Of a stretch of 64,000 nucleotides of DNA, positions 16,773-41,371 are shown one piece after another; the first letter of the stretch is position 1; the number at the start of each line of letters is the position of its first letter. The DNA lies in IMG/VR virus record IMGVR_UViG_3300048121_001678, positions 62,001 to 126,000 of that record; one strand, 5' to 3'. A program made the translations under genes and the position numbers. Origin of the DNA: a virus. A model generated the notes under the pieces. It worked only from the letters and a program-made list of their open reading frames with translations. It made no database searches and was not told where the DNA came from.

Positions 16773-17411
16773 TTATCTTTTTAATTGGCAGAATGATACA
16801 ATAATGTATCTCTGACCTGTTAATACGGGTAAACCCCCGTGACGATGAGTTATTTGACCTGGATGTACCGATATATAACCTTTTTCACCTTTGAGTGATG
16901 TTTTTTGGTTTGGAAAATACGTACCACCACCAGTAAAATCTTCAGTATTTAATGTAACCACAACAGTTATTTGACTCGCATCGTGGTGTAAACCTAAATG
17001 ATATTGTGCATATGGGTGGTATCTCGCAATAAAGTTTTCCGAATGTAAATTCACCCATTCAGGTTCTTCTAATTTAAATAAATGTGCTGACATAGGCCAC
17101 ACATACTCCTCCAGTATCGATTGGTAAGTATCATGTAATCCCAAGGTTTCTAATACCATATCAGTTGTTGGATAATTCTCATGTCTATCAACGGTCCAAC
17201 AGTTACAGGCCTCCGCTTCTTGAACTATATAATCACAAAATAAATCTGTGAAACAAGGAATGGTATAGATATTAGGTAACTCTTCCTGTACATATAAATC
17301 CCAATTACCTGTTAGTAATTCAGGTCGTAAAAACTTCTCTTTCCACCCATCAGGGTCAGTAAAATAAGTATATAACTCAGGGTGTATTTTATTGGTTTTA
17401 ATATCTTCCAT
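16773..17411 (-). CDS. 2OG-Fe(II) oxygenase, prolyl/lysyl-hydroxylase type, 1
   Basis: 212 aa. The double-stranded beta-helix core carries LHHDAS (iron ligands His142 and Asp144), the distal GQITHRHGG (His189), and Arg201 in LTGQRYIIVSF for 2-oxoglutarate. The GGGTYFP loop and the overall pattern are those of the P4H/PLOD hydroxylases that act on Pro or Lys side chains. It starts inside the tail of the small membrane-protein gene at 17398. Two such genes lie nearly side by side. A virion-protein substrate such as Thr/Pro repeats is possible; nucleic-acid or small-molecule substrates cannot be excluded. Confidence 0.9.
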   Translation of the reverse strand: MEDIKTNKIHPELYTYFTDPDGWKEKFLRPELLTGNWDLYVQEELPNIYTIPCFTDLFCDYIVQEAEACNCWTVDRHENYPTTDMVLETLGLHDTYQSILEEYVWPMSAHLFKLEEPEWVNLHSENFIARYHPYAQYHLGLHHDASQITVVVTLNTEDFTGGGTYFPNQKTSLKGEKGYISVHPGQITHRHGGLPVLTGQRYIIVSFCQLKR

Positions 17412-17562
17412 TTTCTTCTCCGTATTCTCTTGCTAATCTTAGACCCCATCCAATCATTAACCCACCAGCAAATGATGACCATAACCATGGATACATACAT
17501 AACCACATCCCTATAATAGCGAATATGCCTGAGTGTCCGTATTTAGTTATTTTTATTTTCAT
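17398..17562 (-). CDS. 54-aa small membrane protein
   Basis: The ATG at 17562 overlaps the end of the upstream oxygenase gene by 20 bp, and the TAA at 17398 overlaps the start of the next oxygenase by 14 bp. The product begins MKIKITKYGHSG. It has a hydrophobic stretch about 12-40 (IFAIIGMWLCMYPWLW, FAGGLMIGW) and a charged tail LRLAREYGEENGRY. It fits exactly between the two oxygenase genes, which supports it as real. Function unknown. Confidence 0.65.
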   Translation of the reverse strand: MKIKITKYGHSGIFAIIGMWLCMYPWLWSSFAGGLMIGWGLRLAREYGEENGRY

Positions 17563-18154
17563 TACAATAATTAATCATATATTTCACATTATTATCTCTA
17601 ACCATTTTAACACCGTATCTGTGAGTTACTTGACCAGGAAAAATATATAAGTGTCCCTGTTTTGGTTTTATAACACAATCATACTTTTCAAAGTATAACT
17701 CACCACCATTATCTACATTCTTATCAAATTTTATTAATTTAGTTATATTAACAAAATCATGATGGAGTCTAATATCATCACCTTTTTCAAATGTTAGTAA
17801 CTCACTCTTGACATTCATCTCTCTAAAACCTCTACCTGATACGGACCAATAGTGATTCATCATTTCAAAACCATATTCCTCAATAACATCATAATAATCT
17901 TGATAGAATGAATGTTCATTAAATTCATACGACTTTAATCGTGTCCCCCATTTATTAGTTACCTGTACCTCTTCATTCTCAATATTTTCTAAGAATTTAT
18001 CACAGAACTCTTCAGTGAAAAAAGGAATTTCTAACACGTCAGTGCATGGGTTTCCTATCATTAAGTCCCATTCTTTGGATAATGCTTCCTTTCTCATGCA
18101 AAGAGCTTTCCATCGGTTAACGTTAGTAAAGTCAAATATTTCAGGGTATTTCAT
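17543..18154 (-). CDS. 2OG-Fe(II) oxygenase, 2
   Basis: 203 aa, a diverged paralogue of the gene at 16773. The iron triad is intact (LHHDFV with His131 and Asp133; GQVTHRYGV with His178). At the position expected for the 2-oxoglutarate-binding Arg it has Lys191 (NNVKYMINY), which is acceptable in some subfamilies. The first 45 residues share a similar layout with the other oxygenase (WKALCMRKEALSKEWDLMI versus WKEKFLRPELLTGNWDLYV). The pair probably modify related substrates. Confidence 0.87.
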   Translation of the reverse strand: MKYPEIFDFTNVNRWKALCMRKEALSKEWDLMIGNPCTDVLEIPFFTEEFCDKFLENIENEEVQVTNKWGTRLKSYEFNEHSFYQDYYDVIEEYGFEMMNHYWSVSGRGFREMNVKSELLTFEKGDDIRLHHDFVNITKLIKFDKNVDNGGELYFEKYDCVIKPKQGHLYIFPGQVTHRYGVKMVRDNNVKYMINYCNENKNN

Positions 18155-19038: not shown

Positions 19039-19041
19039 ATT

Positions 19042-22883: not shown

Positions 22884-24269
22884 TTATGGTCCAACATTAA
22901 CACTCGCCGAAACAGAATTACTAACAAGTACATTTCCACAGTTACTTGTGCTCAATACCGGATTTATTATTTGTACAGTATGATTATCATCTCCGAAAGC
23001 AGGACAATCATTTATCACCGATGGATTACTATTTTGAACTCCAAATGTATTTAAACCTGTTATCGTACCACCTGAAAGTGTTACACTATATGTTTTAGAT
23101 ATACCACTAAATATCGTACCACCACCCATTAATTGTGTGCCATTACATAATCTAGTATTTGTCTGTGATGTGATAACTTCATTACCATTGGTATTAATCA
23201 CCGCATTTCCATTAGTAGTAACACTATAATTTCTATTTAACTGTATTTGTTGTTGAGAATTATAGTTGTTCGTGAAGTTATTCGTAATTAATATGTCCGC
23301 AGTTATTGAAACACCCACAGGAAGTGCAGGTGATACAGATAGTGTCCATCCCACTGACTTTGTATTGTTACTCGAAGACGAAGTTACTGTATTGATACTC
23401 GAACTTAATACTAAATTATATGTGGTCGGTGCTGGCCCTGCAAGTATATTATACCCTCTTATGACGATAAGACCTGTCGTGTCTGTAATATGAACACTAC
23501 CGATACCTGCAGGTAATCCAGTAAATGTTGGTGATGATTGATATGTTAATCCACCATCAATAGAATAACTATAAGGTGGTACACCTGCCCACGCAGTCAC
23601 TGTTATTGTACCATCATTTGAATTAGCACAGGTCTCCATTGTTTTAGATACACTGGCATTTAACGCAACAGTTTCACAAGTACCCGTTGTCATAATCCAT
23701 GTATTACTTGTTCCCAATTCAGTCCATAAACCTTGTGGAATACTAATGTTAGATTGTAGAACAATGTTACCAGGAGTATATCCACTGATTTCCCAACGTG
23801 GTGGTGTATTAGTATTATTATATACAACATCATAAGTTGAACCTGTCCATGACGGTTTACCATTTACAATACCCTTATACCCAAACGCATATTGAGTATT
23901 CGGTGCTTGATATTTAGTCAAACATAATTCAGATGGATATGAAGGAGCCGGTGATGGTGTTGGTGTCGGAGTTGGACTCGATGTTGGAGTTGGTGTCACC
24001 GCATTTACAATACATGTTGTAGACCCACTGTAATCACCATAATTATCAATTACTGTCGCAGTATACGTACCGCTGGCTAAATTTGTTAATGTAGTTACAC
24101 CTACATCACCTGTTGACCAATTTATTGTATAAGGTGGTGTCCCCCCTGTGATAAATAAGGTCATAGTGCCCCCATAACCACTATTGTTGGCATCTGTTGT
24201 TGTACACGACACCCCTAATGGGAGAACGGTAAAAACATCACAGTTATTTGTAGGTATAAGATTACTCAT
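22884..24269 (-). CDS. SprB-repeat virion protein
   Basis: 461 aa. An SprB-type repeat (TLFITGGTPPYTINWSTGD then LASGTYTATVIDNYG, residues about 30-88) is followed by a short Pro/Thr spacer (about 90-115), a Cys-bounded module with VNGKPSW, a second SprB-like repeat (ITVTAWAGVPPYSYSIDGG), and a long Thr/Asn-rich beta domain. SprB repeats are typical of the flavobacterial gliding adhesin, so the phage appears to use a host-type surface fold in its fibres. Confidence 0.82.
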   Translation of the reverse strand: MSNLIPTNNCDVFTVLPLGVSCTTTDANNSGYGGTMTLFITGGTPPYTINWSTGDVGVTTLTNLASGTYTATVIDNYGDYSGSTTCIVNAVTPTPTSSPTPTPTPSPAPSYPSELCLTKYQAPNTQYAFGYKGIVNGKPSWTGSTYDVVYNNTNTPPRWEISGYTPGNIVLQSNISIPQGLWTELGTSNTWIMTTGTCETVALNASVSKTMETCANSNDGTITVTAWAGVPPYSYSIDGGLTYQSSPTFTGLPAGIGSVHITDTTGLIVIRGYNILAGPAPTTYNLVLSSSINTVTSSSSNNTKSVGWTLSVSPALPVGVSITADILITNNFTNNYNSQQQIQLNRNYSVTTNGNAVINTNGNEVITSQTNTRLCNGTQLMGGGTIFSGISKTYSVTLSGGTITGLNTFGVQNSNPSVINDCPAFGDDNHTVQIINPVLSTSNCGNVLVSNSVSASVNVGP

Positions 24270-25661: not shown

Positions 25662-27140
25662 TTAACTCGGCCAAACAAAGTCGGTCAAATATTGATTTTC
25701 TACGTTTATGTTACTCGCACCTATACATGCTGGTGTTGGGGTCACAAGGTCAGTAATACACTGACTACAATCGCTATAATAAATGGAAGGATTACCAAAT
25801 ATATTAGTACTAGATGTTGTTAACACATGATTTGGTGGTGCAACATATGGTTTTTGGAACATACCAACAACCGTCCAACAAGTAGTAAGAGGAGGAACAG
25901 TATATTTGAATGTTGTACCAATTGAAAGAGGACCTACAGACACATCTTGAGCGACAATACTATTTGAACTACATGCACTATACACAAATGTATATTGAGG
26001 TTGACCCTGTGACGATGAAGGTGTGATTGAAGGTGTATTAGGTGGTGTAGATGTTTGTGTAGGTGTTTGTGTAGGTGTAGGTGTTGGTGTACTACATACA
26101 CATCCTGTGTCAGGAGTTGCACTACCTCCTACACCACCACTTAAAATAATTACGTTTATTGCACATACAGTAATCACAGTATATGGATTAACATATACAT
26201 TATACGAATTACCATCACAATCAATAACCGTAAAATTAGTACCATAATTATCGTCATATCCACCATATAAGTCCCAATCTGTACAACATAGTGGTGTTGA
26301 TGATGGTGTCACTGTTGGTGTAGGTGTTGGTGTACTACATACACATCCTGGGTCAGGTGTTGCAGTACCAGTAAAATAGTTACCAGGTATTGGCATTGCG
26401 CTTACCGCACATACCGTAACCACAACAAATGGATTCACATATAAAACATACACATTACCATTACAATCTGTAACTATAAATTCAGTACCATAATCATAAC
26501 CACCGTATAATCCCCAATTTGTACAACAATCGGAACCTGTTGAAGGTGTCACCGTTGGTGTCACCGTTGGTGTTGGCGTTTGACTATGTGAGGGCGTGAC
26601 CGTTGGTGTTCTTGTTGGGCTTGAAGTAATTGTTGGCGTTAAAGTCTGAGTTTGAGTTGGTTCAGGAGTAACTGTTTGTGTGAAAGAAGGTGTTATTGTT
26701 GGTTGAGGTGTACCTGTTGGTGACGAGCCAGGTGTTGCAGACAAAGAAAGTGTTGGGGTGACACTTTGAGTAACTGAAGGTGTTAATGTATTAGTAGGTG
26801 TATGTGTTGGTGTTGGGGTTACTGAAGATGTCGGTGTCGGGCTCGGTATAATCGAATCTTCACAATCTTCACATGAAGTATAGACGTTATTAATTGAGTT
26901 TAAAATTGTGTCAGGTGAACCAGTAACATCACTATCATAATATAAACATAAAAATGAAGTACCATTTGCGTTTGTTATCGCACCATAAAACACCCCACCA
27001 ATATTAATTTGTGTTTGTCCAAATATTAAATCATCAATAATATAAAAAGCATTATTAGTACCACACTCAATAAGCTTCTTTACCGTATCACAGTCAGTCG
27101 ATTCTCTAAATATGTCAAATTTTATACTTCCAGTTATCAT
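25662..27140 (-). CDS. Thr/Pro-rich virion protein with duplicated Cys modules
   Basis: 492 aa. An N-terminal Cys module ends in TSCEDCEDS, followed by a Thr/Pro/Ser tract (about 97-205). Two tandem modules follow, each starting CCTxWxLYGGYD and ending CVCSTPTPTPT, about 70 residues apart and clearly duplicated. After more Thr/Pro there is a last module with TTCWTVVGMF and SDCSQC. The Cys patterns recur in the proteins at 27222 and 53276. It is probably a fibre or decoration protein. Confidence 0.82.
   Translation of the reverse strand: MITGSIKFDIFRESTDCDTVKKLIECGTNNAFYIIDDLIFGQTQINIGGVFYGAITNANGTSFLCLYYDSDVTGSPDTILNSINNVYTSCEDCEDSIIPSPTPTSSVTPTPTHTPTNTLTPSVTQSVTPTLSLSATPGSSPTGTPQPTITPSFTQTVTPEPTQTQTLTPTITSSPTRTPTVTPSHSQTPTPTVTPTVTPSTGSDCCTNWGLYGGYDYGTEFIVTDCNGNVYVLYVNPFVVVTVCAVSAMPIPGNYFTGTATPDPGCVCSTPTPTPTVTPSSTPLCCTDWDLYGGYDDNYGTNFTVIDCDGNSYNVYVNPYTVITVCAINVIILSGGVGGSATPDTGCVCSTPTPTPTQTPTQTSTPPNTPSITPSSSQGQPQYTFVYSACSSNSIVAQDVSVGPLSIGTTFKYTVPPLTTCWTVVGMFQKPYVAPPNHVLTTSSTNIFGNPSIYYSDCSQCITDLVTPTPACIGASNINVENQYLTDFVWPS
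26105..26545 (-). repeat. Tandem Cys-module duplication inside the 25662 gene
   Basis: Two copies of a roughly 210-bp coding unit (CCTNWGLYGGYDYG and CCTDWDLYGGYDDN forms) are joined by Thr/Pro spacers. Protein similarity is high while many silent positions differ, so the duplication is not recent. Confidence 0.75.
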
Positions 27141-27221: not shown

Positions 27222-30200
27222 TTAACAGCAGTTATTACATATTGTAGTTAAATTATATGTTATCGGATTATAAAGTGCCGGTATCACAACCGTATTGTCC
27301 TGAGCACATATTGTAATTGTTGTCGGTACATTTATTATTACACCACTTACCTGTCTCTCTAAACCACATAAAGTATCATCACATTCCGTATAGTAGTACT
27401 CAAAGGTCTGTGAATTACTAAACCCTGTAACCGTTAATTCATATTGTGAACAGAATAAAACTGACGGTGTAGAACTTGGTGTTGGCGTATAAGTTGAAGT
27501 TACAGATGGAGTAACTGTATTTGTAGGTGTAACAGAGGATGTAAGTGTTTGTGTTGGTGTCGGAGTCGATGTTGCATCCAATGATGAAGATGGTGTGACT
27601 GACGCTGTCGGTGTTGGTGTCGATGTTGGAGTCGCACCTGGTGTTGAAGTTACCGTCGGTGTCGCTGTTAATGTAGGTGTAACGGATGGTGTCGGCGTAT
27701 TAGATGACGTCACAGTTACCGTTTGTGTCGGAGTGATTGTGGATGTCGGAGTTGATGTAGGAGTTCCACCAGGTGTCTCTGATGGTGTCACAGTCTGTGT
27801 TACGGTAACAGTTGGCGTAAATGTTGGAGTGATACTTGATGTGATTGATGGAGTCACCGTTAAAGTAGGTGTTACCGATGCCGTTGTTGATGGTGTCAAT
27901 GTCGGAGTAACAGATGGTGTTGCCGATGCAGTTGGAGTAACTGTTGAAGTCTGTGTTGGTGTATTTGTCTGTGTAACATCCGGTGTTTCAGAAGGTGTAA
28001 CTGTTTGTGTAGGTGTTGAAGTTGGAGTCTCAGAAGCAGTAACCGTTGGAGTAACTGAACCTGTAGGTGTATTGGTATTTGTAACCGTTGGTGTTACCGA
28101 AGCAGTCGTAGATGGTGTAGGTGTAATAGATGCCGTTGGGGTAACTGACGATGTAGGAGTTATCGTTTGTGTCGGAGTATTAGATGGTGTTACCGTAACT
28201 GTTTGAGTCGGTGTATTAGTAGGTGTTGAACCTGGCGTTTCAGATGGTGTCACTGTTTGTGTCTGTGTAACCGTCGGAGTAATACTTGCCGTCAATGTTG
28301 GAGTTACTGACGCAGTTGGTGTAATAGTATTAGTAACCGTTGGAGTAACTGATGAAGTCACCGATGGTGTAGGAGTTACTGATGAGGTTGGTGTAACCGT
28401 AGATGTTGGAGTGACAGAAGATGTTGGGGTTACTGTTGACGTTTGAGTGACAGTCTGAGTTGGTGTAGATGTTGGTGTAACACCTGGTGTTTCAGAAGGA
28501 GTTACCGTTTGTGTTTGAGTAACTGTTGGAGTCACACTCGAAGTTAATGTTGGAGTTACTGAAGCAGTTGGAGTAACAGATGAAGTTACCGTAGCAGTTA
28601 CCGATGGTGTTGGCGTATTTGACGTTGTTGGTGTTATTGTCGCAGTTGGTGTCACGGTTGAAGTCTGAGTAACCGTTTGTGTCGGAGTATTAGTTGGGGT
28701 TACCCCTGGTGTTTCAGAAGGAGTGACAGTCAATGTCGGTGTCTGTGTTGGTGTTTCACTCGCAGTCACTGTAGGTGTTACAGATGCCGTTGGGGTAACT
28801 GTAGAAGTAATAGTAGCAGTAACCGATGGAGTCGGTGTAACTGATGATGTTGGTGTCACAGATGCAGTTGGGGTAACTGTTGAAGTCTGAGTAACTGTTT
28901 GTGTTGGGGTGTTTGTAGGTGTAGATACAGGAGTCGATGATGGTGTTACCGTTTGTGTTTGAGTTACTGTCGGAGTTACACTCGAGGTAATAGTTGGTGT
29001 TACTGATTCGGTCGGTGTAACTGATGCCGTCACAGTAGCAGTAACTGAAGGTGTTGGTGTATTTGATGTAGTTGGTGTAACTGAAGCTGTTGGTGTTACC
29101 GATGATGTTGGAGTTACTGAAGCCGTTTGTGTAACCGTTTGAGTTGGTGTATTAGTAGGTGTTGAACCTGGCGTTTCAGAAGGCGTTACTGTCTGTGTTT
29201 GAGTTATTGTCGGTGTGATAGTAGCCGTTAATGTCGGAGTCACTGACGCAGTTGGTGTTACTGTCGATGTTACCGTCGCAGTCACCGATGGTGTTGGAGT
29301 ATTTGACGTTGTTGGTGTAACTGAAGCTGTTGGTGTGATTGAAGCAGTCGGAGTGACAGAACTTGTAGGGGTATTAGTTGGTGTTGAGACTGGCGTCTCT
29401 GAAGGAGTAACTGTTTGTGTTTGAGTTACCGTTGGTGTGTTACTCGCGGTCAATGTTGGTGTAACCGACGCTGTCGGAGTTACCGTTGAAGTTATAGTCG
29501 CGGTTACAGATGGTGTCGGCGTATTAGAAGTTGTAGGAGTAACCGATGCCGTTGGAGTAACAGACGATGTTGGAGTAACAGACGCAGTTTGTGTTACCGT
29601 TTGAGTCGGTGTTGATGTTGGAGTTACCCCTGGTGTTTCAGAAGGAGTAACCGTTTGAGTCTGGGTTACCGTTGGTGTAATAGTCGCCGTAACCGTTGGC
29701 GTAATAGAAGCTGTCGGAGTAACTGATGATGTAACCGTCGCAGTAACTGATGGAGTTGGTGTGTTTGATGTAGTAGGTGTGACTGACGCAGTTGGAGTAA
29801 CAGATGCGGTTGGTGTAACAGAACTTGTTGGTGTATTAGTTGGTGTCGATATTGGAGTTTCAGAAGGAGTTACCGTCTGAGTTTGAGTTACGGTCGGTGT
29901 ATTACTTGCTGTCAATGTTGGCGTAACTGACGCAGTTGGTGTGACTGAAGCAGTATTTGTTGGAGTTACACTTGCCGTTGGCGTAACTGAAGATGTTGGG
30001 GTTACCGAAGCCGTTGGTGTATATGTTGGAGTGACTGACGGTGTTGGAGTGACCGATGCAGTTGGTGTAGGTGTTGGTGTCGGAGCAATGAAGATAACAT
30101 CAACAGGACATATACAAGCCGAAGTATCAACATTAGTAACACCCCAACTACTAATCACCTCACCTGGAGGAAGAATAGAGTTGAAGTTATACTCAACCTG

Positions 30201-33200
30201 ATGGTCACCTTGTGGCCATGTTCTTGTACCTGAATATGTAAATCCTGAACTACCAACCATAAACCCATCAACCTCATAATCACATAAGGACTCAGCAGGT
30301 ATGGTAAACCCAGTATCTTTCCAAAGATTCAATCTAATCTTATCACCCTGAACAACATAACCTGTTAAATATTGTGTCGTTTGAGAACATGTTGTAGATG
30401 GAGTAACTGTTTGAGTTGGTGTAATTGTTTGAGTTTGAGTGACTGTCGGAGTAACAGAAGCCGTAGGAGTAACAGAGGCAGTTGGAGTCACAGATGCGGT
30501 AACTGTTTGAGTAGGAGTAACAGACGCAGTTGGTGTAACCGATGATGTTGGAGTATTAGAAGGTGTTACCGTAACTGTTTGAGTCGGTGTATTAGTAGGT
30601 GTTGAACCTGGCGTTTCAGAAGCAGTTACAGTCTGAGTAGGAGTAAATGTCGGAGTTACGGTTGCCGTTACCGTTGGTGTAATACTTGCCGTTGGTGTTA
30701 CACTCGCAGTTATCGTTGCCGTTACTGACGGTGTCACTGTTTGAGTCGGAGTAACTGAAGCAGTTGGTGTAACCGATGAAGTTGGAGTAACTGAAGCAGT
30801 CACCGTTTGAGTTGGGGTGATTGATGCGGTTGGTGTCACACTCGCAGTTGGCGTAACTGATGAAGTAGGTGTATTTGTTTGTGTTACCTCAGGTGTTTCA
30901 GATGGAGTGACCGTTTGAGTAGGTGTATTAGTTGGCGTTTCACTTGCTGTCAATGTTGGAGTAACAGACGCAGTTGGTGTTACAGATGCCGTCACAGTAG
31001 CGGTAACCGAAGGTGTTGGAGTATTTGTTGGTGTTTCTGTCGGTGTTGGGGTAACTGAAGACGTTGGTGTTACTGATGATGTAGGAGTGACAGATGCCGT
31101 TACCGTCTGTGTTGGAGTGATAGTTGCCGTTTGAGTAACAGTTGAAGTCGGAGTATTAGTTGGCGTACTTACAGGTGTTGACGAAGCAGTAACTGTTTGT
31201 GTAGGGGTAAATGTCGGTGTTACAGTTGCAGTGACTGTTGGTGTGATTGAAGCGGTTGGCGTAACCGACGCAGTTACTGTCGCAGTAACAGAAGGTGTTG
31301 GAGTATTAGACGCAGTTACTGTTTGTGTTGGTGTTACAGAAGCCGTTGGGGTGTTAGTTGGTGTGGTAGTATTAGATGGTGTGACAGTATTTGTTGGAGT
31401 TAGACTAGCGGTCGGAGTAACTGACGATGTTGGTGTATTTGTTGGAGTTGATACAGGTGTTTCTGAAGGCGTTACCGTTTGTGTTTGAGTAACTGTTGGT
31501 GTCACACTAGCAGTCACTGTTGGAGTAATAGACGCAGTTGGTGTAACCGATGATGTAACAGTCGCCGTTACTGTTTGCGTAGGAGTATTTGTTGGTGTTT
31601 CAGTCGGTGTTGGAGTTACCGATGATGTAGGAGTAACTGAAGCCGTCGGTGTTACTGAAGCAGTAACTGTTTGAGTCGGTGTCAATGTCGCAGTTGGAGT
31701 AACTGATGATGTTGGTGTATTTGTCGGAGTAACGGCTGGTGTTGATGAAGCTGTTACGGTCTGTGTCGGAGTAAATGTTGGAGTCACAGTTGCAGTAACA
31801 GTTGGCGTGATACTCGCAGTTGGTGTGTATGTTGGTGTTACAGTCGCAGTAATAGATGGCGTTACAGAAGCAGTTGGCGTAACTGATGCCGTTGGAGTGA
31901 CCGAAGATGTTGGGGTCACAGAAGCAGTCACAGTTTGAGTTGGTGTAACTGTATTAGTAGGTGTTACACTTGCAGTCGGAGTTACAGATGCAGTTGGAGT
32001 ATTTGTAGGAGTAACCGCAGCCGTTTGAGTCGGAGTATGTGTCGGTGTTACTGTAGATGTTGCAGTTACAGATGGTGTCGGAGTAACAGAAGATGTCGGA
32101 GTTACCGACGCAGTTGGAGTATTAGTAGGTGTTACACTTGCAGTCGGAGTTACAGATGCAGTTGGCGTATTTGTTGGTGTCACCGTATTCGATGGAGTAA
32201 CAGTATTTGTTGGAGTAACGGATGCCGTTGGCGTAACCGAAGCTGTCGGTGTATTTGTTGGTGTAACTTGAGCAGTCTGAGTAGGAGTATTAGTTGGTGT
32301 GACGGTAGACGTCGCAGTCACCGATGGTGTAGGAGTCACAGATGAAGTAGGGGTTACCGAAGCGGTTGGAGTGTTCGTAGGGGTAACACTTGCAGTTGGT
32401 GTTACCGATGATGTCGGAGTATTCGTAGGAGTAACACTCGAAGTTGGAGTAACTGAAGCAGTTGGCGTATTTGTTGGAGTTACAGTGTTTGACGGAGTAA
32501 CTGTATTTGTTGGAGTTACACTCGCAGTCGGAGTAACCGATGCTGTAGGTGTATTAGTTGGAGTTACCGCGGCCGTTTGTGATGGTGTCACAGATGCAGT
32601 TGGAGTATATGTTGGGGTTACTGTGGCCGTTCTTGTCGGAGTATTAGACGGAGTGACGGTATTTGTCGGTGTATTGGTTGGTGTAACTGTATTAGATGGG
32701 GTAACCGACGATGTTGGTGTATTTGTTGGAGTAACGGTATTAGACGGTGTAACAGTATTAGTAGGTGTATTCGTAGGCGTCTCACTCGCTGTCGGTGTTA
32801 TAGTTCTAGTTGGTGTATTAGAAGGCGTAACTGTATTCGTAGGAGTATAAGTAGGAGTAACAGTATTCGATGGCGTAACCGATGCAGTAACAGTTGCAGT
32901 CGGTGTTATAGTTCGAGTAGGTGTATTTGTTGGAGTAACGGTATTAGACGGTGTAACCGTATTCGTAGGGGTAAAGGTCGGAGTAACAGTATTCGAAGGC
33001 GTGACTGAAGCAGTTACCGTTGCCGTTGGAGTTATTGTCCTCGTTGGGGTATTTGTTGGGGTAGCGGTGTTAGAAGGGGTGACTGACGGAGTAGCCGTAG
33101 TTGAAGGGGTTAATGTAGCAGTTTTAGTCTGAGTAATAGTTGCGGTAATAGTAGGGGTCACCGAAGCAGTAGGTGTATATGTTGGAGTTACAGTATTTGT

Positions 33201-34721
33201 AGGTGTATTTGTTGGCGTAACAGTATTAGATGGTGTAACTGACGCAGTAGGTGTGACTGTCCTAGTTGGTGTATTAGAAGGCGTAACCGTATTCGTAGGA
33301 GTATAAGTAGGAGTGACAGTATTTGTTGGAGTGACCGTAGGTGTCGGCGTAGCGGTTCTAGTCGGCGTCCTTGTAGGACTTACCGAAATACTTGGAGTGA
33401 CTGAAGGAGTAACCGTCGCAGTTCTAGTCGGAGTCCTCGTAGGACTTACAGAAATACTTGGTGTAACCGTAGCGGTTCTCGTAGGTGTTCTGGTTGGACT
33501 TACAGAAATCGAAGGTGTAACCGTCGGAGTTGCCGGTGGAGTTCGAGATGGAGTAACACTCGAAGTTGGTGTTACAGCTGGAGTTCGAGACGGGGTCTTC
33601 GTCGGAGGAGGAGTACTCGTTGGAGTCCTTGTTGGAGTTCTTGTTGGAGTTCTTGTTGGGGTTGGTGGTATCGGGGTAGTTGACGGAGTTGGAGTTGGAG
33701 TTACAGGTTCATCAGAACAACATTCTTCACATGTCTCGTATACACTAGCCGAACAGTCAACAACCGCTTCACAATCAGGTACAACACCCTCAATAAAATA
33801 ACAACATCCGTCACAACTATCTAATTTAACAACTTGACCAGCATTCGGACATGGATTTAAATTAGTGACTTTAACAAACTGAGCATGATATTGATAATTA
33901 CACTCACATTCGGGTTCTATAAAGTCACACCTAACTAAATAAAGACAACACGGTTCACCTAAGTTAGTCACATCATAACCCTGATTAGGTTCCATACCAG
34001 GTTCATATGGTGTTGGCTCATTAGTATTACCCAAACCTAAACACTCATCACAACCATTTGGAAAAAGAGTATTAACTGAACCTATAAATGATATGTTAGC
34101 GGTAGGACAGTTTTCGGCACAACTTCCAACAGCGATTACTTCCCAACAAACATTTATATTATCAGAAAATGCGTCACCGACACTAAAATTATAAACATTT
34201 TGAATACAAGCGACTGATGTTTGCGTTAGACAGTCCCGAATACATGCATATCCAATATTATGAACAATATATCCGTTTAAAACATAATAACTTGGACCAC
34301 TAAGTGTTATGTTATATAAAGATTCTTCAGAGTATACAATTTCCTTACTAACAACAGGTTCATGAATGATGTCACCATCAACCATTTTAACCATATCATA
34401 TTCACCATCAACAACTAAATCTATTGTAGATATAAACTGATATCTATCATCATTTTTATGATACGCTAAGACATTTTCGTCTATAACACCTAATCCATTA
34501 ATTTGAAGATAGTTACCCTCATCATTATAGATGTCTGTAACCTCAGGTGATTGTATATTATCAACATTAAGAGTTAGTGATTCGATTTCACGGAAGTCAA
34601 TTCCTGCGATAATTTCAGGTATATCAAAAGAGTATACACTGTCACCTAATTGAACATCTTCAATGTTCTTTACGGCACCATTTGAAAGTAATACTTTTTG
34701 TCCTAATTTATAACCAGCCAT
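27222..34721 (-). CDS. Giant Hint-like/Cys-rich/Thr-Pro repeat virion protein
   Basis: 2499 aa. Residues 1-157 look like a Hint (hedgehog/intein) fold: [19 protein letters not shown], then LGDSVYSFD, and at the end [11 protein letters not shown]. The terminal His154-Asn155 is kept but the initial Cys is missing. Residues about 158-335 form a Cys-rich region with several CxxC ends (CDEC, CEECC). About 337-1440 and 1545-2415 are Thr/Pro/Ser/Val hexad repeats (SVTPTA, TVTPTN types). They are broken by an about 100-residue Cys-containing domain ([19 protein letters not shown]) near residue 1450. A final Cys-rich domain ends ICNNCC. It is probably a long mucin-like fibre, situated next to the glycosylation cassette. 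Confidence 0.88.
27465..30095 (-). repeat. Thr/Pro hexad repeat tract, C-terminal half
   Basis: An 18-bp-period coding repeat of the (S/T)VTPTx type, organised into a higher-order unit of about 74-80 aa. The unit is recognisable from the recurring [14 protein letters not shown] anchor. Copies differ strongly at synonymous positions, so the array is old at the DNA level. Confidence 0.85.
30396..33705 (-). repeat. Thr/Pro hexad repeat tract, N-terminal half
   Basis: The same hexad family as the other tract. It begins with basic variants ([31 protein letters not shown]) near the Cys-rich head and passes to [11 protein letters not shown] types. Arg appears only near the N-terminal end and around isolated TPTRT units; elsewhere the tract is almost uncharged. 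Confidence 0.85.
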
Positions 34722-34735
34722 TTATCGATGTAATT

Positions 34736-34754: not shown

Positions 34755-34767
34755 GAACCCTTTTATA

Positions 34768-37128
34768 CTAAGATTCCTTCCTTAAACTTCCATCATAATG
34801 GTCAAACCTATCATGTTCAGTTGGTGATAGTAATAAAATACCTGGTTTAATATTACCTATTATCGTTTCTTGAAACATATATGACATCCAAGTCTGCTCA
34901 TAAGGTCGAGCCCATTTCTCAGTTAAGAACATTTTTTCATTACCATATTTTGACACCACCTGTGGCCAATTACAATAATAAATTTCACCATGTGCAAATG
35001 GTATACCTTGGAAGCTGTCTATTTTTGTGATTTTAGTTTTTGGTGCATTAGGGTCTAATCCTTGGATAGGTAATAATGGTTTTTCAGGCCAATGCTGTTC
35101 TCTAATTTTTTGAGGTACGTTATACCAAGCCCATTGAACTGTATTGTCACCGTAAAACTCAGTATATGATAACTTTAAAAAGTCAAAGTTGTTTTTCTTA
35201 GCAATTTTAAGCGAATTTCTATATAGGTTTTTAACATATCTGTTAAAACCATTTTTATCTACCTCACCCTCTTTAGGATAAAAGAACATATCATCCTCAA
35301 AAAAGAAATAATAATCATATCCATTTTCTTCAGCGTGTTCTGCAACCCATTGTCTACCACCACAAATACCTAAATTATCTTTTTTAACGTGTTCAATATT
35401 ATATTCTTTACAAAGTTCAACATATTCTTCAGTTGTCGATAAATCCGTAGAGTTATCTAACATCACCCATTGTGGTTTAGTTACAAAGTCCTCATCATAT
35501 TGTTTCATAGATTGAATCAATGTCTTTACCTGATTTGGACTATTAAATGTAATCACATAAAGTGCAACATTATCAATATCTAAATCATTAGTAATAACAT
35601 CAAACTTTAACTCATTAAGTGGTTTATGTGTATCATTTTTAACGTCTTCAAAAAACTTACTAATTAATCCATTACCCTCAATTGGGAAATACTGATAGTT
35701 TTCAGGATATCTATACAGTAAAATAGTGAAAAGAGACTCTTCAGTACCCATATAGCCCGAATTAAGAGTGTTTTTCATTAAATTGTAGTACTCATTGTTA
35801 AAATCTGCAATAGATTCTACAGGACCACCAAAGAAACCACCACGACAAACTTTATTTACTTTAGTACTTGTCATTTCACAAATCTTATCATAATCGAATC
35901 CATGAATTTCTGTCTCCGTTTCATAAGGGAATGCGATGTAACTAATTTTGTCTATTTTTGTTAATTTATCCAATACTTTATCGTGTGTAAAGTATCCAGA
36001 ATGTACGGTATTGGTAATCCCCGCATCTAACCAAAATAAATGTGTTGAATTAAATTGGTCCATTATTTTAGCATCATGTAAAAGATATGGTTTAGACATA
36101 ACCAGTGGATTATACATGTCAAGTTTAGCCTGTGTTGACTCACCTAACCAACCAACCTGATTTATCCAATCAGGATTATTTCTAATAGTTTGTATTGAGT
36201 TGTAAAACTCACCTTTAAACCATTCTTGGTCACGTGTTATAAACATAGTATTATCTCTACTACGTCTTTCAAAAACAAACTCCTCTAATTCTGCATCACC
36301 AAATACTATAAGGTTATAAGGTATTTCCAAAAATTGAGAAAACTTCTCTAAATAATGTTCAAAACTTCTTGACCATCCCTCGGCTAATTCATCTCTTTTA
36401 ATGTTCCATAACCCAGTAACTATTGTAATTCCACTTTCATTCATATCTTCATATATCTCGTTATATATTTCTTTGATGATACCTACTATGTCTTCAGATT
36501 CTTTACCATAAACGTATCCGTTATCATCAAAAGTTTTTATTATTTGTTGTTTTTCTTCATCAGATAGACTTGACCACTCTAATCTAACTACTTTAGGTCT
36601 ATACTTTGAAAAATCAATCTGTTTAAATATTTCATAATCATGTCCTTCGGCATCAATTTTTATAACGTCAAATTCAACAATATTATGTTTTTCTAATAAC
36701 CTTTCAAAAGTAATACACGGTACCTTTACTCTAAGTCCATATTTTTCAACAGTATCTCTATCACCATCACTACCCAATCCATTTTTTGGTGGATATATTG
36801 CACTCATACCCATAAAACAAGTATGCATCTTACCTTCTTGTATCGCTGAAGGACTGATAGTAATCATTTCCACATCACCATTATATGTTGAGATTGCAGA
36901 GTTTTCATACTTATTTTCATCCCCAAAGTTTTTCTTTAATTTTTCAAAATAGTATGGAATTGGTTCCACATATAAACCTTTAAAATCATAAGCATTTGAA
37001 TACCCACTTAACTCATCAAATGTTTGACCATCCATAGCCCCAATATTAATGGTAAATAATCTATGACCTTTCTTACCTAAATGATGTAATATATCATTAA
37101 AATAATCTGTATTTTTTAACTGTATCAT
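34768..37128 (-). CDS. FkbM methyltransferase / HtrL-like / glycosyltransferase fusion
   Basis: 786 aa from the ATG at 37128, which overlaps the upstream stop as TAATG; a TTG 10 codons earlier is less likely. Residues 1-230 are an FkbM-type SAM methyltransferase (FTINIGAMDGQTFDEL; FDVIKIDAEGHDYEIFKQ). About 233-515 resemble HtrL/YibB (WlaTC) proteins (ITIVTGLWNIKRDE; LFWLDAGITNTVHSG; PENYQYF). About 520-786 are a GT-A glycosyltransferase (VALYVITFNSPNQVKTLI; NLGICGGRQW; FFFEDDMFF as the metal site). One polypeptide could add sugars and methylate them. It opens the five-gene glycan cassette next to the Thr/Pro fibres. Confidence 0.85.
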   Translation of the reverse strand: MIQLKNTDYFNDILHHLGKKGHRLFTINIGAMDGQTFDELSGYSNAYDFKGLYVEPIPYYFEKLKKNFGDENKYENSAISTYNGDVEMITISPSAIQEGKMHTCFMGMSAIYPPKNGLGSDGDRDTVEKYGLRVKVPCITFERLLEKHNIVEFDVIKIDAEGHDYEIFKQIDFSKYRPKVVRLEWSSLSDEEKQQIIKTFDDNGYVYGKESEDIVGIIKEIYNEIYEDMNESGITIVTGLWNIKRDELAEGWSRSFEHYLEKFSQFLEIPYNLIVFGDAELEEFVFERRSRDNTMFITRDQEWFKGEFYNSIQTIRNNPDWINQVGWLGESTQAKLDMYNPLVMSKPYLLHDAKIMDQFNSTHLFWLDAGITNTVHSGYFTHDKVLDKLTKIDKISYIAFPYETETEIHGFDYDKICEMTSTKVNKVCRGGFFGGPVESIADFNNEYYNLMKNTLNSGYMGTEESLFTILLYRYPENYQYFPIEGNGLISKFFEDVKNDTHKPLNELKFDVITNDLDIDNVALYVITFNSPNQVKTLIQSMKQYDEDFVTKPQWVMLDNSTDLSTTEEYVELCKEYNIEHVKKDNLGICGGRQWVAEHAEENGYDYYFFFEDDMFFYPKEGEVDKNGFNRYVKNLYRNSLKIAKKNNFDFLKLSYTEFYGDNTVQWAWYNVPQKIREQHWPEKPLLPIQGLDPNAPKTKITKIDSFQGIPFAHGEIYYCNWPQVVSKYGNEKMFLTEKWARPYEQTWMSYMFQETIIGNIKPGILLLSPTEHDRFDHYDGSLRKES

Positions 37129-37658
37129 TATTCTATTACTATAAAGTTCTTTTGCCAACCTTTATATTCCGTCCAAGTCTTACCCAAAATCTCTGCGGTT
37201 TCAACTGCAAAATTATATTCATCTTCTCTGTGTGTGTCATCCATAATAATTGGAACTGATGTATTCAATCTATCCCAGTATTTTGCAATATTATTTCTAG
37301 TCTTAACTTGGTCTAAATTTGGTGGTCCATCAACAATAATTAACGAATATTCTTCAGGTAAACTATTGAATACAACTTCAGAATTATACCATCCGTCCAC
37401 AATATCCGCTAAGATGTAATTAGCCTTTGGTGCCAAACGTGTAAATCTTTCTTGGTGTTCAATAGCATATACGTTATGATACCTACTCAGCTCCATAGTA
37501 CCACTACCACTACCAAACTCAATGATTGTCTCACCCTTTTCAATATTTTCATCAATCCAAGAATAACACTCCATAGATATTGCCCAACCATCAAGGTTAT
37601 TCATATTAACATCCAATTCCTTTAACTTAGGAAATATATAATTTAAATCTGTATTCAT
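37128..37658 (-). CDS. SAM-dependent methyltransferase (class I)
   Basis: 176 aa, Rossmann-type. The SAM-binding loop is TIIEFGSGSGTMELSR, followed by VYAIEHQERF (acidic end of beta 2) and LIIVDGPPNL in the region of motif IV. It resembles small methyltransferases found in glycan gene clusters. Both ends are coupled (ATGA upstream, TAATG downstream). The substrate is unknown; a sugar hydroxyl is likely from context. Confidence 0.8.
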   Translation of the reverse strand: MNTDLNYIFPKLKELDVNMNNLDGWAISMECYSWIDENIEKGETIIEFGSGSGTMELSRYHNVYAIEHQERFTRLAPKANYILADIVDGWYNSEVVFNSLPEEYSLIIVDGPPNLDQVKTRNNIAKYWDRLNTSVPIIMDDTHREDEYNFAVETAEILGKTWTEYKGWQKNFIVIE

Positions 37659-38533
37659 AATTGCTCAAAAAACTTATAAAAACTTATTTTACCATCCAAA
37701 AATTCAGGAGTAACAGACTTATCAGTTAAGTTTGAATCGTCGTGATACCACGTATTAAATTTGAATGAGTGATAGTTTTCAGGTTTATCATACACCATTG
37801 TAGACATCATTGCTTCATGATTAAGAAGAAATTCTTTACTTAAACACATCTGAGAGTATTCCTCAAATCTTTGAAATAAATTAGGTAACTTACTCACATG
37901 ACCACCTATTATACCACCAATAGAAAGGGAGTCATACATGTGGTCTTTTTCTAAAACTTCATTCAACTTTCTATGGTCATGAAAAAATAATGTGTTTCTA
38001 ATATCAATTAATTTATCACCAAGCCAGTTGTTAATTTTAGGTATTGTATTTTCATTAAAAATACCATCATAGGTGTATCTATATTTGTTCATTGATAATC
38101 CTGTGATTTTATCCGCATTTGAATTATACCTTCTCGGATATAAACCAATATGTGATAAACCACAGTCAAACCAATATAAGTACTCTAAACCTTCTACCAT
38201 TTCGTCTTCCATCAAAGCAATTTTAGCCCATCCAACTTCTAAATAAAATTTAAACAATTCAGGGTTTTTTTCTTTGACTTCAATCATCTTTTTACTATGT
38301 CTTATATCTTGTAATTCTTTGACTTTAATAGTCACATTAGTTACTCCATTTTCATCTAAAATTTCTTGTAGTGATTCCGCAGTATTAGACCCAGTATAAC
38401 AAATAATTTGAACATTCATCTGAGATAATTGTACTAATGAATGAGTATATCTATCCCATCTTGCCTGTACTTTATGTCCAAAGAATGGGAAGTCTCCAAT
38501 TCCGAAATATAAAAAAGTTACAATTTTTGTCAT
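37655..38533 (-). CDS. HtrL/YibB-like glycosyltransferase
   Basis: 292 aa. Landmarks parallel the middle domain of the fusion protein at 34768: YLYWFDCGLSHIGLYPRRY versus LFWLDAGITNTVHSG, a GGIIGG segment, and PENYHSFKFN versus PENYQYFPI. It therefore probably belongs to the same HtrL_YibB/WlaTC-type family. The Asp in WFDCG may be the metal-binding site. It is coupled by ATGA overlaps to both neighbours. Confidence 0.72.
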   Translation of the reverse strand: MTKIVTFLYFGIGDFPFFGHKVQARWDRYTHSLVQLSQMNVQIICYTGSNTAESLQEILDENGVTNVTIKVKELQDIRHSKKMIEVKEKNPELFKFYLEVGWAKIALMEDEMVEGLEYLYWFDCGLSHIGLYPRRYNSNADKITGLSMNKYRYTYDGIFNENTIPKINNWLGDKLIDIRNTLFFHDHRKLNEVLEKDHMYDSLSIGGIIGGHVSKLPNLFQRFEEYSQMCLSKEFLLNHEAMMSTMVYDKPENYHSFKFNTWYHDDSNLTDKSVTPEFLDGKISFYKFFEQL

Positions 38534-40101
38534 TTTCTAAAGTAATAGTCTTCTAATAATAAACAGTCCATTTTAGTCTTATCATAGACCTTCAACGCAT
38601 CCGTGTATCTTGATAGGATAGGTTTTCCATTTACATTAAATGAAGTGTTTAATAATACACCTATACCTGATTTTTTCTCAAACTCCGTCAGTAGATTATA
38701 TAGCCAAGGATTTTGCTCTTCAGTTACAGTTTGAACACGAGCAGTACCATCAACGTGAGTTATAGAAACTAATCTCTCTCTCCATTCTTCTTTAACCGTT
38801 GGACAGAAACCCATCCATCTACTCTCACCCTCAAAGTCAAAGTATTTAGACACATCCTCTAATTTACATACAGGTGCAAATGGTCTATACCATTCTCTAT
38901 TCTTAACCTTAGCATTCAATATGTCTTTCATATCAGGATAAGCAGGATTGCAAATAATACTACGATTACCCAACGCTCTTGGTCCATGTTCTGATGTACC
39001 TCTAACAACACCAACAATTTTACCATCATTTAGGTCGTCTGTTAATCTTTCCAAATCTAACTCACTACCTCTACGTTCTTCAACGTGGGACATTAATGTG
39101 TGTTTATCTAAGATAGGTATACCAGCATATGTCACATCAACCGCCTTTTCAGGTTTCATATGATTCAAAATCATACCCGTAGCAATACCACAATCATTAG
39201 GGTTAGGTGGAACAAAAACAGGACGGTCTAATACTTGTTGTAACTTGGTATTAAGTAGAATATTAAGAGCACATCCTCCAACTGTTATCAACGGTATATT
39301 AGGATATTCATCTAAGAACGGCTGAGCCATCTCCATAAACACATTTTCAAACGCAGTCTGTGATGTTTTAGCAACATCCCATGAAGTTTGACCTGTTAAT
39401 CTATTCTGAATATCAAATACCAATCCTGTTTGTTCACCTAATTCACCCAAAAACTCAATATAGTTCAAACCGTCAGGTTTTCTTCTATAGTAGTTTTCAA
39501 AGTGTGGTAACCATTCATTATTCACGTTACCATAAGAACAAAGTCCCATGATTTTACCTGAATAAACTAAGTTACCAATATTTAATGCCGGTTCCTTACG
39601 AATATCCCCCATATAGTCACCAAATGACATATAAGGAAATCCTAAATCTAAATTGTATTTATCTAATAATGTAATTTCTGTTCTACCAGACGCTAAATAC
39701 ACGTTATAAAAACCATCATTACCACCACCATCAAAAGATATTATTAATGCGTCATCATAATCTGTCTGATACAGACCACATGCGGCATGACTAAGGTGAT
39801 GTAATTGATTTACGTGTTTTTTAGCAGGTATAAGTTGTTCATAGTGTACTTTGGTACCTCCTTCCAATGTATCCGAATTTAAGTAGTAACACGTATCGTA
39901 TTCACTGATACCAAATTCATCTTCAATGTATTTTAATATTTCTTTTAAAAGATAAGGTCTTGTGTAAGAAACGAGGTACTGTGCGTACCCCGCATTCTTT
40001 TCACTTAAAAATCTTTCAACTTCAATTACCGTAATTAATTCTCCATTCTCTTCAACCGCAACCGCAGCATTGTGAGAACCGTAAAATGATATATTTGCCA
40101 T
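38530..40101 (-). CDS. NodU/TobZ/CmcH-type carbamoyltransferase
   Basis: 523 aa. The N-terminal ASKHA/Kae1-like domain has HHLSHAACGLYQT and ISFDGGGNDGFYNV, then VGGCALNILLN. The C-terminal domain has TSEHGPRALGNRSII, EWYRPFAPV and LLNTSFNVNGKPI. These are the family's diagnostic motifs. It should transfer a carbamoyl group from carbamoyl phosphate, through an ATP-dependent adenylate, to a hydroxyl, probably on a sugar. It is overlapped by the HtrL-like gene downstream and is a glycan-decorating enzyme by context. Confidence 0.92.
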   Translation of the reverse strand: MANISFYGSHNAAVAVEENGELITVIEVERFLSEKNAGYAQYLVSYTRPYLLKEILKYIEDEFGISEYDTCYYLNSDTLEGGTKVHYEQLIPAKKHVNQLHHLSHAACGLYQTDYDDALIISFDGGGNDGFYNVYLASGRTEITLLDKYNLDLGFPYMSFGDYMGDIRKEPALNIGNLVYSGKIMGLCSYGNVNNEWLPHFENYYRRKPDGLNYIEFLGELGEQTGLVFDIQNRLTGQTSWDVAKTSQTAFENVFMEMAQPFLDEYPNIPLITVGGCALNILLNTKLQQVLDRPVFVPPNPNDCGIATGMILNHMKPEKAVDVTYAGIPILDKHTLMSHVEERRGSELDLERLTDDLNDGKIVGVVRGTSEHGPRALGNRSIICNPAYPDMKDILNAKVKNREWYRPFAPVCKLEDVSKYFDFEGESRWMGFCPTVKEEWRERLVSITHVDGTARVQTVTEEQNPWLYNLLTEFEKKSGIGVLLNTSFNVNGKPILSRYTDALKVYDKTKMDCLLLEDYYFRK

Positions 40102-40102
40102 G

Positions 40103-41371
40103 TTATAGTGTTCCTGTTAATCTGTCACACCAACCTTTAGATGACGAATAAGGCCATACAACCCAATAAGCTGGTTTTTCAGTTATGTTAAATTGTCTCC
40201 AAACTTTACAATAACCATCTGGGTCATTCATCATTCGGTCTATTTCTGCCCTATCAGCATCCTTTCTGTGAATAGTGTTATCTTCGCTATCGTGGAAAGC
40301 AACTACCCAATATTCATAATCTTTTTCAGGTACTTGCTCATAACCCACATCAATACAATGTTTATAGATAGTCGCAAAACTTTCTAACCATTCTTCTTTA
40401 CTCTCAAAAGTATCGATACCTGGGTTAGGTGGGTAATGTTTATCTAACGTATATTGTTGTACTCCTCTTACACCAAACTTTAATCCTGAATACTCTTCGT
40501 ACTCCTCCAAAGTTCTATTAGGACCAAAACCATACTTACCATCATGACCTTCTTGAGATTCACCATCCATACCAAATAGCTTTCTATTAGTTAAGTGAGA
40601 ATGACTGTTTTTGTTACCCCATTCTTTGTCATCATCCCATTGCTTAGTTCTACCCTTACGAGTATATTCATGCCAAATTAAGACTTTATGTGGGTGGAAC
40701 ATATCATAACCCCATGTGAATGCTCTTGCAGCTATTGAAATCTCCTCACCGTGGAAGTAATACTCAGGATTGTGTTGTACCTCTTCACTGAACTCACCTA
40801 ATGTGAAACAGAAGTGAGCAGAGTAGAATCTTGCGGGTACTGGTGTGTCTAACTCTCTCCAATTTGGAATTGTCTCAGGTAAAAAGAATACCGCACCTTC
40901 AGGAATAAATCGGTCAAATGCCATTCTCCATGGCTCTTGTACTCTAGCACCTGGGTCATTATCAGGGTCAAATGATGAAACATATCCTGTCAATAATGGT
41001 TTTGGTATCCCCATACCTTGGAGTTGTTTTACCATTTTAATCATCTCAACATCCCAATCTTTTGCAAATCTCATATGTGAGTCAATCTGTAAAGTATACA
41101 TCTCTCCTCCATATAATTGTTGAATCGAGTGTCTTGCCCAACACGCACCTTTAGAGTCCTCATAAGGGATGTCTAAAATACGAAAACGTTCGTCATCTCT
41201 ATATTTATCTAAATTGTCAAATCCATCTTCAGAATGATATTGTCTACAAATACCAAATACTAAGTTTTGTGGTCTTTTCGCATTCATTATCATATCCTCA
41301 ATTGTGTTAACTAACTCAGGGTCTCGATATGACGCCACTTGTATGAAAATCTTTTGTGCTCTTCTTGCCAT
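40103..41371 (-). CDS. GT60-like polypeptide GlcNAc-transferase
   Basis: 422 aa. IFIQVASYRDPELVNTI, FGICRQYHSED, GACWARHSIQQLYGGE and YTLQIDSHMRF fit the Glycosyltransferase (GlcNAc) family PF11397/GT60. Known members of that family attach GlcNAc to hydroxyproline of Skp1 in Dictyostelium and to Thr in trypanosome mucins. YFHGEEISIAARAFTWGYDM is a further typical segment. This is the enzyme of the cassette most directly pointing to protein O-glycosylation. Confidence 0.88.
   Translation of the reverse strand: MARRAQKIFIQVASYRDPELVNTIEDMIMNAKRPQNLVFGICRQYHSEDGFDNLDKYRDDERFRILDIPYEDSKGACWARHSIQQLYGGEMYTLQIDSHMRFAKDWDVEMIKMVKQLQGMGIPKPLLTGYVSSFDPDNDPGARVQEPWRMAFDRFIPEGAVFFLPETIPNWRELDTPVPARFYSAHFCFTLGEFSEEVQHNPEYYFHGEEISIAARAFTWGYDMFHPHKVLIWHEYTRKGRTKQWDDDKEWGNKNSHSHLTNRKLFGMDGESQEGHDGKYGFGPNRTLEEYEEYSGLKFGVRGVQQYTLDKHYPPNPGIDTFESKEEWLESFATIYKHCIDVGYEQVPEKDYEYWVVAFHDSEDNTIHRKDADRAEIDRMMNDPDGYCKVWRQFNITEKPAYWVVWPYSSSKGWCDRLTGTL

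Follow-up and report, generated by a model that had tools for sequence, protein, structure and literature searches.

The 64,000-nucleotide stretch analysed here (the window) corresponds to bases 62001-126000 of the 297,164-bp virus record IMGVR_UViG_3300048121_001678 (G000); coordinates with the prefix 'G000:' refer to the whole record, and window coordinates to the stretch. Our analysis makes it quite likely that two separate pathways for the modification of virion proteins are partly encoded in the window: a mucin-type pathway, centred on a GT60-family glycosyltransferase and long Thr/Pro-rich fibres, and a collagen-type pathway, centred on lysyl hydroxylases (LHs) and Gly-X-Lys fibres. This conclusion is based on gene identities, predicted folds, intact catalytic residues, gene adjacency and co-occurrence, from which we infer the substrates, the sugars, the order of the steps and the virion location of the products. 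The initial annotation of the window had assigned the same genes to a single mucin-like system. All of the open reading frames (ORFs) that it named are present on the minus strand (Table 1), and its sequence observations were confirmed. Its interpretation was supported in part, because two systems had been merged; the hydroxylases are now assigned to a predicted collagen-type lysine pathway, parts of which fall outside the window.

The GT60 enzyme and its presumed substrates

The product of the gene at window position 40103, originally proposed to be a GT60 enzyme, matches the PF11397 profile with an E-value of 4e-68 and 231 bits, exceeding the cut-off (21 bits) by 210 bits, and also matches phrog_24687, a family of phage glycosyltransferases (8e-165). 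By sequence, it is a bona fide member of CAZy family GT60. Because searches of PDB sequences with this protein or its alignment gave no real match, it was compared by fold. The top PDB matches of its AlphaFold2 (AF2) model (pLDDT 82, pTM 0.78) are the mucin-type enzymes GalNAc-T2 and TgGalNAc-T3, with moderate TM-scores of about 0.4-0.5, in agreement with a GT-A fold of the polypeptide HexNAc-transferase kind. The residues D97-S98-H99 are invariant across 37 relatives and, in our reading, may represent a putative Asp-containing metal motif. GT60 enzymes of protists start mucin-type O-glycosylation by adding O-GlcNAc to Thr (PMC8724618, PMC3769586), and by analogy the donor sugar of the phage enzyme is probably alpha-GlcNAc.

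The 2499-amino-acid (aa) Thr/Pro/Ser fibre encoded next to the glycan cassette is composed of 33% Thr, 14.5% Pro and 11.5% Ser; as noted previously, similar proteins are encoded at 49822 and 53276. It contains two Thr/Pro-rich blocks of ~1,140 and ~910 residues, in which a count over 2,090 residues gave 310 TPT/TPS motifs and just 3 Lys. Such a skewed composition over ~2,090 residues is not due to chance, and the long Thr/Ser/Pro-rich scaffold that characterizes mucin-type proteins is present in the window fibres. Two further giants, at G000:174232 and 177640, resemble the Thr/Pro proteins of 492, 1108 and 1884 aa in the window. At the N-terminus of the 2499-aa protein, ~160 residues show weak similarity to a Hint/intein domain (PF14890, 0.0014, below the cut-off); this region ends with VHN and lacks the usual N-terminal Cys, and is possibly a self-cleaving or relic Hint domain.

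Pairing of GT60 with Thr/Pro-rich ORFs in phages and bacteria

A scan of viral contigs yielded 511 GT60-encoding stretches, of which 80 were kept; 53 loci remained after the removal of near-duplicates. As a control, we used 49 loci of an SbcC-like gene (window 10037) in the same phage lineage. A Thr/Pro-rich ORF is present within ~10 kb in 49 of the 53 GT60 loci and in 32 of the 49 control loci. Within 400 bp, the corresponding numbers are 30 of 53 and 0 of 49 (Fisher's test, 1e-11), so the previously suggested co-occurrence of GT60 and Thr/Pro fibres was found across relatives. All of these 30 ORFs lie on the same strand as and upstream of the GT60 gene, mostly at a distance of 60-150 bp.

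The additional glycosyltransferase-like domains claimed for the cassette were identified as the HtrL_YibB and GT2/TAGT-like parts of the protein encoded at 34768-37158. This three-domain protein (FkbM-HtrL_YibB-GT) is a constant partner, found in 76 of the 80 GT60 loci. Carbamoyl- and methyltransferases had also been named as parts of the system. The carbamoyltransferase was confirmed by PF16861, and both its Carbam_trans N and C domains were found, as expected for the TobZ/NodU type. These genes are not constant members, since a carbamoyltransferase occurs in only 4 and the small methyltransferase in 2 of the 80 loci; carbamoylation and methylation are thus possible accessory steps.

Among 50,697 phage records, GT60 was found only in XacN1, RAS14 and CM1 (45-47% identity), and long matches to the FkbM-HtrL_YibB-GT protein (~70% of the query, 38% identity) occur in exactly the same three phages. 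In XacN1 and RAS14, a carbamoyltransferase gene adjoins the GT60 gene, further genes are present in the cassette, and the cassette lies near a gene for a baseplate-region protein of 3.1-3.3 thousand aa with a terminal Thr/Pro tail. A control search in GT60-free phages for homologues of ORF325, the XacN1 protein with the Thr/Pro tail, found none; only the three GT60 phages have ORF325. At least two virion glycoproteins were reported for XacN1 from proteomic analysis, and the authors suggested phage glycosyltransferases as the cause (PMC5852040).

The pairing extends to some bacteria. In a proteobacterial metagenome-assembled genome (L318) and in Magnetospirillum sp. UT-4 (L334), which encode GT60 proteins with 32-35% identity, a Thr/Pro repeat gene overlaps the GT60 gene or ends 73 bp before it. 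The bacterial Thr/Pro-repeat proteins in GT60 loci (L318:2-1165, L334:1-1998 and L340:3-2432) all end in Trp (LEW, IGW and SGW), which is perhaps a shared sorting tail. A different type of repeat, (G-[ST]-S)n with up to 983 triplets, was seen in ORFs of the GT60 phages G013, G019, G020 and G038 (stretches L284-L294, L392-L401 and L409-L420). Some of these phages have few or no Thr/Pro ORFs, and the repeats are possible candidates for alternative O-glycosylation substrates.

Because of the fold matches of the GT60 protein and the known mucin-type activity of GT60 in protists, direct O-glycosylation of Thr is the best reading of these data. Comparative genomics lends good support to mucin-type O-glycosylation of the Thr/Pro fibres, the activity itself being predicted.

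Lysyl hydroxylases and collagen-like fibres

The two oxygenases encoded at 16773 and 17543 had been regarded as prolyl-hydroxylase-like, but they are instead of the PLOD/LH (lysyl) type by sequence and fold. A sequence search with the 16773 product gave matches to mimivirus L230 (4e-25) and, in its LH domain, to human LH3 (1.6e-29), with no prolyl hydroxylase among the matches. When its AF2 model was searched, LH3 (1e-20) and L230 (TM-score 0.82-0.86) filled the first 15 ranks; the first prolyl hydroxylase ranked 16th by fold (2e-9), which does not place the protein among the prolyl 4-hydroxylases (P4Hs). The iron triad (H142-x-D144 and H189) and the 2-oxoglutarate (2OG)-binding residue, Arg201, are conserved in the alignment. 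The 17543 product matches LH3 at 1e-6, and Lys replaces the 2OG-binding Arg. Both proteins are thus predicted lysyl hydroxylases, the case for the latter being weaker.

The GT and AC domains that accompany the LH domain in LH3 are absent from the 16773 ORF and are carried by a separate ORF at G000:52731, the predicted collagen glucosyltransferase (GGT). Its product aligns with residues 14-491 of the LH3 chain and the window LH domain with residues 500-713, so that the two tile LH3 almost completely. Trp145, Asp190 and Asp191 have been highlighted for R699/LH3 (PMC9546862), and W145 and D190/D191 are kept in the G000:52731 product according to our reading of the alignments. This protein also carries an insertion of ~150 aa after the poly-Asp motif, which is missing in the related records G001 and G016.

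Three collagen-like giants are encoded ~35-48 kb from the LH genes. Each contains 233-242 Gly-X-Y triplets in runs of at least 5 and 110-123 GxKG motifs, with Lys in ~40% of the Y positions. Beside them (G000:25885-30583) lie genes for two other 2OG oxygenases (PF13661 and PF13640), a GT17 glycosyltransferase (7e-31) and a DUF6445 protein; these oxygenases are possibly prolyl hydroxylases for the collagen-like giants.

Co-segregation was examined in 11 records that were read in stretches, each with genes for GT60 and the HtrL_YibB-GT protein. Both LH and a close GGT relative occur in exactly G000, G001 and G016, the sole records with Gly-X-Lys fibres (335-376 GxKG each in sum). Among the eight records with 0-2 GxKG, LH was found in none, and GGT in none except for a weak 37% match in G039. 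Five GT60 loci had been counted as collagen-like by a loose Gly-X-X pattern; in the full stretches of the related LH-less records, the repeats are G-[ST]-S or G-[AP]-Q and contain no Lys. This co-segregation of LH with Gly-X-Lys fibres is regarded as support, not proof.

On other viral contigs, most LH relatives form the C-terminal domain of a larger protein, a GT4-LH fusion, whose operon also encodes a collagen-like fibre, a small 2OG oxygenase and a GT2 protein. Collagen-like ORFs are present in 10 of the 12 non-redundant LH loci of other phages, as compared with 5 of 102 loci in two other sets. In the cultured Synechococcus cyanophage S-CAM9, COLGALT-like, PLOD-GT and LH parts are combined in one polypeptide (gp218), which has relatives in S-PRM1 and S-8S53/55/56. 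The cyanophage PLOD-like genes follow a tail-fibre gene, whose product contains 55-59 Gly-X-Y triplets and 22-24 GxKG motifs, and are accompanied by two 2OG oxygenase genes. Similarly, gp58 of Roseobacter phage CRP-6 contains PLOD-GT and LH parts and is encoded near a Collagen-family tail fibre. The PLOD-like proteins of cultured phages (L295, L296 from S-CAM9, L297 from S-PRM1, L298, L300 and L098 from CRP-6) are annotated as 'hypothetical protein' or merely as 2OG oxygenase. No publication on PLOD enzymes of phages came up in a literature search that covered few subscription papers.

Proposed pathways and alternative explanations

In the mucin-type pathway, GT60 would transfer a sugar (probably alpha-GlcNAc) to Thr/Ser residues of the neighbouring Thr/Pro-rich fibres, the HtrL_YibB/GT2 protein would extend the glycan, and carbamoyl- and methyltransferases would decorate it in some phages, the outcome being bottle-brush-like glycosylated fibres. 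In the collagen-type pathway, the two window oxygenases would hydroxylate Y-position lysines of the Gly-X-Lys fibres, and the split LH3-type glucosyltransferase, perhaps together with the GT25 enzyme, would glycosylate the hydroxylysine. It seems fairly probable that tailed phages possess an animal-type collagen lysine pathway (lysyl hydroxylase plus collagen galactosyl- and glucosyltransferase) for collagen-like fibres, split in this jumbo phage and fused in cyanophages, and that it is combined here with mucin-type Thr O-glycosylation, a single virion then bearing both types of animal-like extracellular glycoprotein.

Several findings weigh against these proposals. The phage lineage is generally rich in Thr/Pro ORFs, as seen in the control loci; therefore, only the tight adjacency is informative. 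A Thr/Pro ORF is missing from four of the 53 GT60 loci and from the 219-kb record G013, and is not seen close to most cyanobacterial GT60 genes; other GT60 acceptors may therefore exist. The donor sugar is putative, and the XacN1 glycoproteins (PMC5852040) are attributed here to the phage as a whole rather than to named proteins or sites. For the collagen-type pathway, the LH genes are not adjacent to the collagen genes in G000, and the 11 records compared are all related to one another, so that they are not phylogenetically independent, and most of them may be fragments.

The view that all of these genes form one integrated system, in which Pro or some other residue of the Thr/Pro fibres would be hydroxylated by the oxygenases and the resulting hydroxyl glycosylated by GT60, as in Dictyostelium Skp1, draws on the existence of GT60 enzymes that act on hydroxyproline and of a protist dual prolyl hydroxylase/GlcNAc-transferase (PMC8724618). 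In addition, a single genome contains both gene types at a distance of 23 kb, and LH has a Thr/Pro ORF in its vicinity in L102, the closest relative. However, the enzymes are LHs rather than P4Hs by sequence and fold, LH matches occur in at most 2 of the 32 GT60 records (one of them weak) and GT60 in 1 of the 12 LH records, the clear overlaps being the nearest relatives of this phage, and Thr/Pro fibres are retained in GT60 phages without LH. Moreover, the Thr/Pro blocks of the 2499-aa protein are nearly devoid of Lys, and polypeptide alpha-GlcNAc-transferases act on Thr without prior hydroxylation. Related enzymes modify Thr directly in protist mucins (PMC3769586). The hydroxylation-then-GT60 pathway, which we consider very improbable, was rejected on co-occurrence and fold. 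Of the single mucin system first proposed, O-glycosylation of the Thr/Pro fibres stands as the best reading, and the membership of the oxygenases was not supported.

The cassette might alternatively modify phage DNA, producing 5-carbamoyloxymethylcytosine or glycosylated hydroxymethylcytosine, given that a phage 5-hydroxymethylcytosine (5hmC) carbamoyltransferase has been proven (PMC8670742). The third domain of the 34768 product is consistent with this, as it resembles phrog_842 (beta-glucosyl-HMC-alpha-glucosyltransferase, 1e-5) and, weakly, TAGT. Evidence against it comes from thymidylate synthase, in which an Asn at the corresponding position marks a dTMP synthase: the enzymes of G000 and of two relatives have this Asn (PFNIASY); a thymidylate synthase homologue was not found in the 295-kb relative G043. 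For the supply of 5hmC by a dCMP hydroxymethylase or TET, no hmC-making gene was recognized, and there was no Tet_JBP match, which is weak evidence since the search lacked a positive control. In addition, XacN1 DNA is cut with BssHII, NaeI and SpeI (PMC5852040), the cassette abuts Thr/Pro ORFs, and the carbamoyltransferase is missing from most GT60 loci. DNA modification is therefore improbable.

Only slightly more credit is given to an effect on host surface polysaccharides (superinfection exclusion or receptor masking), with the fibre neighbourhood as a mere hot spot for morons, which we consider unlikely. PHROGs classes the GT60 family as moron/host takeover, and bacterial gene clusters for surface glycans likewise include members of the HtrL_YibB and FkbM families. 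Yet the link is specific to a same-strand upstream Thr/Pro-rich ORF and recurs in unrelated phages and bacteria, the predicted fold of GT60 matches polypeptide GalNAc-transferases, and glycoproteins were reported for XacN1 (PMC5852040). Two separate pathways for proteins thus account best for the data.

Other genes and the genome setting

Table 1. Genes of the two predicted pathways (unprefixed coordinates refer to the window)
Feature	Coordinates	Strand	Evidence
Lysyl-hydroxylase (PLOD/LH3 C-terminal) domain enzyme, predicted collagen-type system	16773..17411	-	LH3 and L230 matches; AF2 model
Second, diverged LH-like 2OG oxygenase	17543..18154	-	LH3 1e-6; alignment
492-aa protein with Thr/Pro-rich segments	25662..27140	-	Composition
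2499-aa mucin-like Thr/Pro/Ser fibre, presumed substrate	27222..34721	-	Composition; weak Hint/intein-like N-terminus
FkbM methyltransferase + HtrL_YibB + GT2/TAGT-like three-domain protein	34768..37158	-	PF05050 6e-18, PF09612 3.5e-13, PF20691 0.001
Probable S-adenosylmethionine methyltransferase, accessory	37128..37658	-	Glycine-rich motif by eye; no Pfam match
Family-less cassette protein	37655..38533	-	No Pfam match; weak relatives (~25% identity) in 51/80 GT60 loci
TobZ/NodU-type O-carbamoyltransferase, accessory	38530..40101	-	PF16861 2e-63; PDB carbamoyltransferase 2e-49, TobZ 3e-44
GT60-family glycosyltransferase, polypeptide HexNAc-transferase-like, presumed Thr O-glycosylation initiator	40103..41371	-	PF11397, phrog_24687, AF2 model
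1108-aa protein, Thr/Pro-rich stretches between other domains	49822..53148	-	Composition
1884-aa protein, Thr/Pro-rich stretches between Cys-containing domains	53276..58930	-	Composition
Three collagen-like giants	G000:30629-34687, 34687-38634, 38818-43677		Gly-X-Y repeats
LH3-type GT+AC collagen glucosyltransferase (GGT)	G000:52731-54611 (L085:14731-16611)		LH3 2.3e-50, R699 5e-41
GT25-family gene	G000:236445-237209		COLGALT1 likeness 2e-6

The host is suggested to belong to Bacteroidota, because a type IX secretion C-terminal domain was recognized by eye at G000:273648-274556 (no Pfam match), an SprB repeat is present at window 22884-24269, and GT60 relatives with 71% identity occur on contigs binned with Saprospiraceae/Bacteroidia. 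The virus fits a tailed jumbo phage, consistent with tail-type PHROG matches; a search of phage records for near-identical counterparts of the first 25 kb gave no match.

Other sugar-related genes are scattered over the record: an arylsulfatase (G000:5587-7188; PF00884 2e-37, SGSH_C), a marginal sulfotransferase-like protein (G000:23933-24700; PF00685 7e-5) and, far from the GT60 cassette, two more carbamoyltransferase-like genes recognized by eye (G000:256231-258087 and 258854-260521). A cluster at G000:187237-200184, also identified by eye, contains genes for a DegT-like aminotransferase, a sugar O-acyltransferase, a UDP-glucose dehydrogenase-like protein and several glycosyltransferases, and is a possible source of the nucleotide sugars used on the fibres. 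A cysteine-synthase-like auxiliary metabolic gene (pyridoxal phosphate-dependent, OASS-type; by eye) was seen at window 15246-16130, near an SbcD-like gene and the oxygenases.

Implications and comparison with known systems

There are few demonstrations of virion glycosylation in phages, and glycosylation of hydroxylysine has been studied in animals and giant viruses of amoebae. If our proposal is true, dense brushes of O-glycans, and collagen-like fibres bearing glycans, are encoded by phages on a wide scale, as suggested by the 511 GT60 stretches in one viral collection and the cyanophage PLOD-like genes. This would bear on the shielding of fibres from proteases, the adhesion to hosts or mucus-like matrices and the origin of collagen-modifying enzymes, and would provide bacterial-type enzymes for hydroxylated, glycosylated recombinant collagen. 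XacN1, RAS14, S-CAM9, S-PRM1 and CRP-6 have recorded hosts.

The phage GT60 enzyme shares PF11397 with the protist enzymes Gnt1/Gnt2 of Dictyostelium and TcOGNT-2 of T. cruzi, and candidate mucin-like Thr/Pro acceptors are encoded beside it. Unlike these enzymes, it has no evident signal anchor and is paired with the HtrL_YibB-GT protein, and its activity and donor are putative. Phage glycosyltransferases are also thought to modify virion proteins in XacN1 (PMC5852040) and in mycobacteriophages (Freeman et al. 2023, as cited in PMC12619734). In the latter, as described in the citing paper, the glycans are located at the C-termini of capsid and tail-tube proteins (PMC12619734), whereas the presumed acceptors here are hundreds of Thr residues in long fibres and the enzyme belongs to GT60. 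Carbamoyltransferase domains are shared with the phage 5hmC carbamoyltransferase found by MetaGPA (PMC8670742), but the partner genes here are of the protein/glycan type.

As for the collagen-type pathway, the GT, AC and LH domains of human LH3/PLOD3 are all present, with near end-to-end alignment, conserved catalytic residues and Gly-X-Lys fibres, along with a GT25-family gene resembling COLGALT1. The LH3-type domains are divided between two ORFs here and joined with a COLGALT-like part in one COLGALT-like + PLOD_GT + LH polypeptide in cyanophages, and they are encoded by viruses of bacteria, which have no endoplasmic reticulum. The closest parallel in organization is found in mimivirus, in which separate LH (L230) and GT+AC (R699, collagen glucosyltransferase) enzymes accompany viral collagens (PMC9546862). 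Mimivirus is a giant virus of amoebae, whereas the viruses described here are tailed bacteriophages with collagen-like fibres.

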